A stretch of 40,501 nucleotides of DNA from positions 1-40,501 of the forward strand of contig CAIPWR010000067.1 of assembly GCA_903868795.1 (NCBI GenBank). The letters are read 5' to 3'. Under the pieces are notes generated by a model. It was given only the letters and a program-made list of their open reading frames with translations, had not been told where the DNA came from and made no database searches. The translations under genes were made by a program, and so were the position numbers. Positions 6,262 to 8,184 of the stretch are shown piece by piece. Positions within the stretch are counted from its first letter, which is position 1. Each line of letters opens with the position of its first letter. The stretch is from an uncultured Spartobacteria bacterium. Lineage in GTDB: Bacteria; Verrucomicrobiota; Verrucomicrobiia; Chthoniobacterales; UBA6821.

Positions 6262-7408
6262 CTAGAGATCGTCGTCGTCGGATGAGGAACCCTTCTTCAC
6301 GCCACGCAGCTTGGCTTCGATAAAGGCATCGATATCGCCATCCATGACCTCCTGGACATTGCCGGTCTGAACGCCGGTCCGGTGATCCTTGACCATCTGG
6401 TAGGGCTGGAAGACATAGGATCTGATCTGGCTGCCCCAGGCGATTTCGCCCTTCTCCCCGTACTGCCTGTCGATCTCGGCACGCTTCTTATCGGCCTCGA
6501 GTTGGTAAATCTTGGCCTTGAGCAACTGGAGAGCCTGTTCGCCGTTCTTTCCCTGACTTCGCTGGGCCTGACAGGCAACGACAATTCCGGTGGGGATGTG
6601 GCGAAGGCGAACGGCGGTTTCCACCTTATTGACGTTCTGACCTCCCTTACCCCCGGAGCGGAAGGTGGAACGCTCAATGTCAGCGGGATTGATCTCGATC
6701 GGGGCGTCGATGATCTCCGGTGTCACGTCGATACTGGCGAAAGAGGTATGGCGGCGCTTTGCTGAATCGAAGGGAGAGATACGGACGAGACGATGCACGC
6801 CACGCTCGGCCTGGAGATAGCCATAGGCAAAGTCACCCTTCACCTCGATCGTGACGGACTTGATTCCTGCTTCCTCTCCCTCCTGGATATCCATCACCTC
6901 AGCAGTGAATCCGCTTCGCTCGATCCAGCGCTTGTACATGCGCATCAGCATGTCGGCCCAGTCACATGACTCGGTGCCTCCTGCCCCCGAGTTGATCGTG
7001 AGGTAGGCGTTGCTCTTGTCGAAGTCTCCGGAGAGGAGTTGCTGGAGCTCGAACTTCTCAATCTCGCCAGTCAACGCATGGAACTCCTTCAAGACTTCAC
7101 CCGCAGCCTGGGCCTTGGCGGCGGGGTCGGGATCCTCCATGGCCATTTCCTTGAGAATTTCAAGATCACCGACACGCAACTCCAACTGCGCAAGCGGACC
7201 GAGTTTCGCCTTGATGGACGAGACCTTCCCCATGTCTTTCTGGGCTGACTCACGGTTATCCCAGAAGCCGGGTTCCGCCATGCGGCCCTCGATGGCCTCG
7301 AGTTCCGCAGCTAATCCTGGAGCGTCAAAGAAACCTCCTGAGCGAGCCGAGTCGGTCGGCAAGCCCGGAGGCATCCAGGGTGGTTAGGTCTATTTGTTGT
7401 TCAGACAT
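6262..7408 (-). CDS. prfB: Peptide chain release factor 2, with programmed +1 frameshift
   Basis: RF2 reads UGA and UAA stop codons on the ribosome and releases the peptide. The SPF anticodon tripeptide is in RISPFDS and the catalytic GGQ is in [10 protein letters not shown]. The product is made from two frames. Translation starts at ATG 7408 and runs 27 codons to CTT (7330-7328). An in-frame TGA follows at 7327-7325. After a +1 slip it continues with GAC at 7326, giving about 381 residues. The slip site CTT-TGA-C is preceded by AGGAGG three bases before the CTT, as in the E. coli prfB autoregulatory signal. A frame-2 start near 7374 is an artefact of ignoring the slip. There is no Shine-Dalgarno before ATG 7408. 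It is the last gene of the long minus-strand block, separated from ftsB by an unusual 428-bp region. Confidence 0.96.
7325..7339 (-). promoter_or_regulatory. RF2 programmed +1 frameshift signal
   Basis: On the minus strand AGGAGG (7339-7334), TTT and then CTT TGA C make the standard RF2 recoding signal. The internal SD-like hexamer pairs with 16S rRNA and promotes slippage of peptidyl-tRNA from CUU to UUU when RF2 is scarce. Confidence 0.95.
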
Positions 7409-7446
7409 GGAATCACTAAAATTTAAGGCGAGATCAGGGAATCAGC

Positions 7447-7473
7447 GAAAAGAAAAGGCGCGCAGGGGCGCGG
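7447..7473 (-). terminator. Terminator-like hairpin upstream of prfB
   Basis: On the minus strand CGCGC, loop CCCT and GCGCG (7473-7460) are followed by CC and a TTTTCTTTT tract. This is a small GC-rich stem with a U-rich run, about 40 bases before the prfB start. It could terminate or attenuate transcription entering prfB from upstream. Confidence 0.5.
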
Positions 7474-7482
7474 CTTAGTCAT

Positions 7483-7548
7483 TCTAGGCTATGGCCTAGA
7501 AGTCCGAGGAGCAGTAGCTCCGAGAATGCCTGATCCGGGAGGATCGGC
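7483..7548. repeat. Row of three small hairpins
   Basis: Three short perfect inverted repeats follow one another: TCTAGGC/GCCTAGA at about 7483-7502, GGAGC/GCTCC near 7508-7521, and GATCC/GGATC near 7532-7545. Loops are about four bases. They lie between the duplicated prfB leader and the terminator-like stem. Coordinates may be off by one or two bases. Confidence 0.45.
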
Positions 7549-7633
7549 AGACAAACCTCCTGAGCGAGCCGAGACGGTCGGCAAGCCCGGAGGCATCCAG
7601 GGTGGTTAGGTCGATTTGGGTTTCGGAAGACAT
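7490..7633 (-). pseudogene. Duplicated, diverged 5' end of prfB (short ORF)
   Basis: An ATG at 7633 opens a reading frame of about 45 codons whose first 27 residues closely match the prfB N-terminus. The block from the ATA/ATC codon to AGGAGGTTT spans about 65 bases with only two differences from prfB, and both are synonymous (ATA to ATC, CGA to CGT). The start differs slightly: MSSETQIDL against MSEQQIDL. After AGGAGGTTT the recoding site CTTTGAC is replaced by GTCTGCC, so the UGA is gone. The frame continues about 18 unrelated residues to a TAG inside the first hairpin. It is either a remnant of a tandem duplication or a leader ORF. Nothing downstream encodes the rest of RF2 in this frame. 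Confidence 0.7.
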
Positions 7634-7653: not shown

Positions 7654-7799
7654 TAATATGGAACTCAGGAACTCAGGAATAGAATCTTGAAGTGGGATAC
7701 TGAAAATCACGAGAGATAGGTTTTTTTGCGATGAGATGGATGAGTCTCACTGAGACGGAAAGTCCCACAATTTTTTGTGAGTTCCTGAGTTCCATATTA
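7654..7799. repeat. 146-bp element with perfect 22-bp terminal inverted repeats
   Basis: The arms at 7654-7675 and 7778-7799 are exact reverse complements over 22 bases. They contain the tandem octamer GAACTCAG twice in a row. Inside, GTGGGA (7692-7697) pairs with TCCCAC (7763-7768), and GTCTCA (7744-7749) with TGAGAC (7751-7756), so a long branched stem can form. No ORF is present. It may be a small non-autonomous mobile element or a structured RNA. Confidence 0.65.
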
Positions 7800-7836: not shown

Positions 7837-8184
7837 TCAAGAGCGCGGTTTGGCGCTGCTCAGGCGGAAGATCGTCTCACCATTCTTCATGAGATCGAGG
7901 CGATCACGGGCAATCATCTCAAGATACTCTTTGTCGGTTTGGAGGAGGTGGGCCTCCTGCTCATGATCGGCGGTTGATTTCTTCAGCTCTTCGAGATGCG
8001 CTGTCTGGACGGCGAGATCCTTTTTCATCTCGGAGAGTCGGACCCACTGAGGATAGAAGGTGAACCCCGCTATCAGCAGAGCACAGGCACCAATCAGACC
8101 CAGGACGACACGCATCGCGGTCGGAAGGAACTCCGACTGCGAGCGGCGACTTGAATTCGTATGGGCAACGTGACTGCCGGTCAT
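7837..8184 (-). CDS. FtsB/DivIC-type septum formation protein
   Basis: This 115-residue single-pass protein should act in the divisome at the inner membrane. A short basic cytoplasmic tail (residues 1-24) precedes a membrane helix (about 25-44, VVLGLIGACALLIAGFTF). A periplasmic coiled coil follows (about 50-85, rich in Leu, Glu and Lys). The closing segment YLEMIARDRLDLMKNGETIFRL is the hallmark of the FtsB/DivIC family. The family bridges FtsL and FtsQ and helps activate septal peptidoglycan synthesis. It starts ten bases after the eno stop; the eno-ftsB order is common in many bacteria and supports the call. Confidence 0.9.
   Translation of the reverse strand: MTGSHVAHTNSSRRSQSEFLPTAMRVVLGLIGACALLIAGFTFYPQWVRLSEMKKDLAVQTAHLEELKKSTADHEQEAHLLQTDKEYLEMIARDRLDLMKNGETIFRLSSAKPRS

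Follow-up and report, generated by a model that had tools for sequence, protein, structure and literature searches.

SXT/R391 ICEs insert in the 5' end of prfC in such a way that the old 5' end of the gene is left behind and a new 5' end, together with a new 5'UTR, is supplied. On a smaller scale, several families of interspersed bacterial repeats with RNA structure have been described, namely ERIC/RU-1, Correia/NEMIS, BOX and RUP (reviewed in PMC2229807). As for the release factor gene prfB, a stable hairpin placed upstream of CUUUGA stimulated +1 frameshifting in vitro, with 70S ribosomes and in the absence of RF2, mimicking the internal Shine-Dalgarno (SD) duplex (PMC6321510). Flavobacterium johnsoniae, a low-frameshifting bacterium that rarely uses SD, keeps the prfB motif, according to a survey in whose text, as far as prfB is concerned, hairpins, secondary structure, leaders and duplications all go unmentioned (PMC12421855).

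The window analyzed here, that is, the whole stretch of 40,501 nt, contains a prfB gene that is preceded by a second copy of its own 5' end and by a structured repeat; all features discussed below are on the minus strand. This arrangement is probably the relic of a junction formed by insertion or illegitimate recombination involving the structured repeat, as opposed to a leader peptide with a role in regulation, and a hairpin encoded at the frameshift site is the reason why the duplicated segment looks frozen.

The duplicated prfB 5' end and the repeat at its junction

The gene for RF2, prfB, occupies positions 6262..7408 (ATG at 7408-7406), and an 87-bp direct repeat with 89% identity (7319-7405 and 7541-7627) is found at its 5' end and upstream of it. 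The second 5' end reported in an earlier note on this DNA is thus real: an ATG at 7633 opens a 27-residue copy of the prfB N-terminus, upstream of prfB's own ATG at 7408. This relic copy (7553..7633, 27 codons) is joined to the repeat at a TTT; in the 63 nt that precede the junction, it differs from prfB at two positions, both synonymous, precisely the near-identity that had been noticed. The open frame that starts at 7633 (7496..7633) comprises 45 codons followed by a TAG (7498-7496) located within a hairpin, again in agreement with the earlier observation. The next gene upstream (7837..8184), septum-formation or DivIC-like and named by resemblance alone, serves as a syntenic landmark. Between divIC and the relic lies a MITE-like element (7654..7799) with perfect 22-bp terminal inverted repeats and a GGAACTCAGGAACTC core; there are tens of related matches in each genome of the genus, and the element is present at the same locus in G005 and G012.

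The downstream gene retains AGGAGGTTTCTTTGAC, with the +1 frameshift at CTT TGA C (7330-7324), and shows the organization of a programmed frameshift, that is, an SD-like sequence followed by 3 nt and CTTTGA C, with RF2 open in the +1 frame. Judging by this intact site, RF2 would still be made from the ATG at 7408 via the usual frameshift. The slippery stop is absent from the relic copy, as had been pointed out, but the explanation offered, namely, a diverged copy in which CTTTGAC mutated to GTCTGCC, does not hold. The segment 7555-7453 is a full-length member of a dispersed repeat (116.6 bits), so that the difference represents a junction, TTT|GTCTGCC, at which prfB is joined to the repeat, and not a mutation; a diverged prfB running through the slippery site was rejected because the sequence after TTT is the dispersed repeat.

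The repeat member in question (model R1; 7453..7555, E 1.2e-23) is 103 nt long and consists of four hairpins. In a search of 58 relatives, all genomes of the genus had matches to the segment 7555-7452 at numerous unrelated loci, and 34 copies could be aligned without difficulty. The consensus is a closing stem that encloses three hairpins, followed by a fourth, terminator-like hairpin and T's. In this alignment, 96% of the stem cells are paired, compared with 27-44% for slid structures used as a control, and 20 of the 33 pairs show changes on both sides (compensatory), with none of 500 shuffles reaching as high. In the window, the core of the repeat's 3' hairpin with its T run (7459..7472) is terminator-like by a consensus scan only; its stem covaries in the family. 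A covariance model yielded 133 matches in 16 of 16 genomes of the uncultured Chthoniobacterales genus to which this DNA belongs, and in a class-wide sample, matches came from one of 122 genera, with none in the other genera sampled. The dispersed repeat is, then, specific to this genus among those sampled, and it combines two properties of ERIC-like repeats, occurrence at many unrelated loci in one lineage and conserved secondary structure. A known RNA family was rejected for the region: Rfam holds none for the repeat, producing only a tRNA at the gathering score and nothing credible below it. The repeat search reported no terminal inverted repeats for 7453-7555, unlike the adjoining 7654-7799 element.

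Among the other repeat copies inspected, flanking duplications never exceed 12 nt, so duplication is not the habit of the repeat, and the possibility that it makes target-site-type duplications everywhere was rejected. At one locus, G003 and G012 carry the repeat in place of the left half of a MITE that is intact in G009 and G001, and this replacement involved no target duplication; a search for an empty site at a repeat locus of G005 found no orthologous locus. A preference of the repeat for sites right after a hairpin and T run is suggestive only (Mann-Whitney p 0.003, with a small effect and non-independent sites).

The repeat occurs in tandem and in subfamilies. Locus L173 (G014:C6:76985-77295) contains three head-to-tail copies with a 103-nt period, and L174 contains two copies spaced by 179 nt. 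At L050 (G001:C8:81648-81750) and L054 (G012:C22), the repeat lies at the end of a Lys/Ala-rich gene resembling a histone tail, and a new C-terminus and stop (KKVPGKAA*) seem to come from the 3' hairpin of the repeat, read on the opposite strand. A variant with an extra segment, ATCGACGAAGGAGAGGCAAGCAA, before the fourth hairpin is found at L191, L044 and L047 (in G012, G011 and G007, respectively), where it lies within a larger repeat with ends of the AGGCTTGG type.

The hairpin at the prfB frameshift site

The near-identity of the two 5' ends had been taken as a hint at selection on the encoded peptide or at a recent copy. Near-identity alone, however, is no sign of peptide selection: the same 42-nt block is synonymously conserved to an unusual degree in single-copy prfB throughout the clade, and both copies encode an mRNA hairpin. 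In a ten-genome clade, the fraction of identical synonymous codons is 0.87 in the 14 codons before AGGAGG compared with 0.60 in the body of RF2, and this excess is present with or without the duplication; for four further members of the genus and for other genera, it is small or missing. The block folds into the hairpin CCUCC...GGAGG (7334..7371), in which GCC TCC (CCUCC) pairs with the SD-like GGAGG, and this fold is stabler than those of synonymous-codon shuffles. The frameshift site places CUU in the P site and UGA in the A site, and the hairpin adjoins its E-site codon. Given that the direct repeat has an offset of 222 nt, the same hairpin is predicted at 7556..7593 in the relic copy.

A pattern that combines the hairpin pairing with the slippery site matches prfB in 37 of the 50 sampled Chthoniobacterales genomes, the matches being spread over seven families, and outside the order it matches essentially only unrelated sites, with a single match, in G170, that could be prfB. 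All 41 distinct hairpin sequences fold (the order-wide loci include L223-L251), the outer stem being fixed by the search pattern, so that the test on the inner stem alone is free of such selection. The inner stems differ, for example, ACTGA/TCAGT, AGGCC/GGCCT, GCGTC/GACGC and CGGCC/GGCCG. A consensus fold with fixed columns does not work, the register of the inner stem being different from lineage to lineage, and synonymous-codon shuffles were used instead: the outer stem was left unchanged, and the nine inner codons alone were shuffled among the synonyms of the genome concerned. The natural sequences exceed the shuffled ones in stability (mean z -2.3 for 29 sequences, not all of which are independent), and with one representative per lineage group, the combined p is 7e-9. 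The picture that emerges is that of a stable and conserved hairpin placed immediately before the E-site codon, and this hairpin, to judge from these codon-level comparisons, is maintained by synonymous codon choice. The hairpin is encoded just before CUUUGA, which is why the copied prfB stretch looks frozen.

By analogy with the internal SD:anti-SD duplex, the hairpin probably promotes +1 frameshifting, a fair alternative being that it masks the SD-like site from initiating ribosomes. A broader proposal, which we put forward tentatively and rate at slightly less than an even chance, is that the order-wide hairpin, with GGAGG as its 3' strand and abutting the E-site codon, would be a cis-encoded substitute for, or partner of, the SD:anti-SD duplex in the autoregulation of RF2, the lineage being apparently SD-poor, and that in one genus, a mobile structured repeat would have rearranged with exactly the segment that comprises the hairpin and TTT. 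In a crude scan, an SD-like core was detected upstream of the first ATG in five of the 36 long ORFs of the window, although the 16S anti-SD is intact; together with the in vitro result on CUUUGA and the case of F. johnsoniae, this makes a cis-encoded duplex in prfB plausible. An altered anti-SD was rejected as the reason for the hairpin: the 3' end of 16S keeps CACCTCC wherever the 16S pattern was found, including G000, the pattern itself requiring CACCTCC so that genomes without a match are uninformative. The open-access literature searched, which does not cover everything, yielded no prior description of a prfB leader or hairpin, and a leader copy goes unmentioned in recent surveys of prfB; as far as could be found, the hairpin is previously undescribed, and the statement in the earlier note that no prfB leader of this kind had been described stands within the same coverage.

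Distribution and origin of the insert

The prfB locus was compared among 15 genomes of the genus that have RF2, 14 of which are readable in this region. The copy, the repeat and prfB are found together in G000, G001, G009 and G010, and G006 has the repeat with the copy cut after nine codons, so that carriers account for five of the 15 prfB loci. A single prfB start without a copy is found in nine of the 14 readable loci (G003, G005, G007, G012, G014, G004, G013, G015 and G008), among them the nearest relative, G005, with 99% RF2 identity. In G002, where contigs are broken at the prfB 5' region, the insert motif is absent, and elsewhere in Verrucomicrobiota, no 5'-end copy was detected in 75 prfB loci.

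The motif is a 17-nt sequence in the 5'UTR, CCTGATCTCGCCTTAAA (7422..7438), that precedes the real prfB start and is specific to the insert. In a search of 16 genomes of the genus, exact but for C/T and C/A being allowed at two positions, it was found only at prfB of the five carriers, G000, G001, G009, G010 and G006. Given this confinement to the insert-bearing loci, a single origin of the insert is most likely. In a small tree of RF2 and the DivIC-like protein, the carriers are scattered, which implies frequent loss or exchange, and in a tree of the short repeat, the prfB copies are split between two positions, G000/G001/G009 and G006/G010.

The repeat lies between the first prfB 5' end, which is truncated, and the complete gene, so that the two prfB 5' ends flank an insert that consists of the repeat and a 44-nt 5'UTR. 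The left junction is at a TTT present both in prfB, as AGGAGG-TTT, and in the repeat, as TTT-GTCTGCC. G006 likewise has its left junction at TTT, with the sequence GACC-TTT, which could have formed independently or through a subsequent deletion at TTT. Under the relic interpretation, donor prfB DNA with the repeat already upstream of the start would have recombined into a prfB without the repeat, using homology on the prfB side and TTT microhomology on the other side. The first 27 codons of the recipient would have been stranded upstream, with prfB given a new 5'UTR and start, and later gene conversion, interspecies exchange and excision between the direct repeats would have produced the patchy distribution and the similarity of the copies within a genome. 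A donor-type locus (repeat, 5'UTR and prfB, without the copy) was not found among the genomes compared, so that this recombination path is one that we infer. A derivation of the 44-nt 5'UTR (from the repeat to the ATG) from the right half of the GGAACTC MITE was considered and not established (shuffle p from 0.01 to 0.47).

The divergence of the copies can be followed over 63 nt. The copies within a genome differ by 1, 1, 2 and 8 nt, and the leaders differ by 1 to 10 between genomes; the likeness within genomes fits homogenization by recombination between direct repeats. Over these 63 nt, the leader of G009 resembles prfB of the sister genome G003, where the gene start is single-copy (2 differences), and the real prfB start of G009 resembles those of G012 (1 difference) and G005 (2), as would be expected if the insert arrived later.

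Alternative readings and relation to known systems

The observation that weighs most against a relic is that the insert is conserved well above the fourfold sites of RF2, which could mean function instead of a relic combined with exchange. The identity of the insert compared with the RF2 fourfold sites is 0.925 versus 0.534 for G000-G001, 0.898 versus 0.573 for G000-G009 and 0.779 versus 0.385 for G000-G010. The entire insert might accordingly be a functional regulatory region of prfB, in which the repeat would end eno-divIC transcription and the 5'UTR would carry a prfB promoter or translation control element. The occurrence of the 17-nt motif in five divergent species, the terminator-like CGCGCCCCTGCGCG with its T run and the strong fold (z -3.05, for RNA) all favor such a role. 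However, nine of the 14 readable prfB loci of the genus, that of the 99% relative included, do without the insert, the repeat is present at many unrelated loci, and a consensus scan revealed no sigma-70-like promoter, a result that says little in this phylum. The conservation, furthermore, could stem from recent exchange, and exchange and function would both do as its explanation. We therefore regard a regulatory insert as possible, with perhaps one chance in three, and note that it does not exclude the leader copy inside being a relic. In either case, prfB now stands behind an insert-borne 5'UTR that may matter to its expression. Whereas the structure of the repeat is conserved in every copy, the 5'UTR motif lies outside the repeat and is the best candidate for the working part, whether in promoter function or in translation.

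The earlier note had also considered a decaying or chance duplication. A relic does fit, but ‘chance’ is too simple because the copy goes together with a structured repeat, is found in five species and shares the downstream 5'UTR motif, with the insert far above fourfold-site identity. The layout of an old 5' end, an insert and a new 5' end with a new 5'UTR, along with the flanking direct repeats and the patchy distribution, could further suggest an integrative element with site specificity for the prfB 5' end, which it would replace with one of its own, the present insert being a deletion remnant. This is unlikely given that the five inserts are just 147-224 nt long with no integrase or cargo at any of the loci, that the same repeat is found at many non-prfB loci without flanking duplications and that there are two different left junctions, AGGAGG|TTT and, in G006, GACC|TTT.

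The leader ORF that the earlier note gave as one of two options, a 45-codon frame from 7633 with a stop read by RF1 that would control prfB by sensing the release factor balance, is largely refuted and, in our estimate, very improbable, even though the frame is open from the ancestral start and the peptide is nearly identical to the RF2 N-terminus. G000 and G001 use TAG as the stop and G009, G010 and G006 use TGA, the lengths of the frames vary among the five carriers, G001 has a Gly-to-Val change at a position otherwise constant among the leaders, and only nine prfB codons remain in G006. The nucleotide conservation is common to single-copy prfB and is explained by the hairpin. Comparison with related genomes was the check named beforehand, and the leader reading fails it, with the copy missing in the nearest relative and the frame disrupted in others; neither a conserved leader frame and stop nor presence in close relatives, as expected of a prfB attenuator, was found. 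Finally, an assembly artefact at a repeat, conceivable inasmuch as the genomes are MAGs or fragmented assemblies and G002 breaks exactly here, is barely credible considering that the same architecture, with species-specific substitutions, is seen in five independent genomes.

If the junction-relic interpretation is correct, a small repeat can leave the former start of a gene behind while providing that gene, here an essential and autoregulated one, with a new 5' region, and such relics should not be read as leader peptides. If the order-wide hairpin at the best-studied bacterial frameshift site is genuine, the stimulatory duplex can be encoded in the mRNA, which bears on how SD-poor lineages maintain RF2 autoregulation. 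No cultured strain was seen among the close relatives, so experiments are limited to heterologous reporters.

Compared with the known systems, the R1 repeat resembles ERIC/NEMIS-type repeats in being about 100-130 nt long, non-coding, dispersed and strongly folded and in being able to bring open frames into neighboring genes. It differs from them in sequence, in the four-hairpin junction structure and in having no terminal inverted repeats or TA ends seen, as well as in having replaced half a MITE at one locus without a clean target-site duplication and in lacking an Rfam match; it is a family separate from ERIC and NEMIS. Like SXT/R391 at prfC, the prfB insert strands the old 5' end and brings a new 5' end with a 5'UTR, but it affects a different gene and is a 150-nt segment without integrase or cargo. 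The downstream gene has the standard prfB motif, AGGAGG TTT CTT TGA C, in which, unlike in the standard case, the SD-like sequence doubles as the 3' strand of a conserved mRNA hairpin. As in the engineered hairpins (PMC6321510), a stable hairpin abuts the E-site codon upstream of CUUUGA; unlike in those designed constructs, the hairpin here is predicted from the natural sequence of a bacterial order, and its own 3' strand is the SD-like element.
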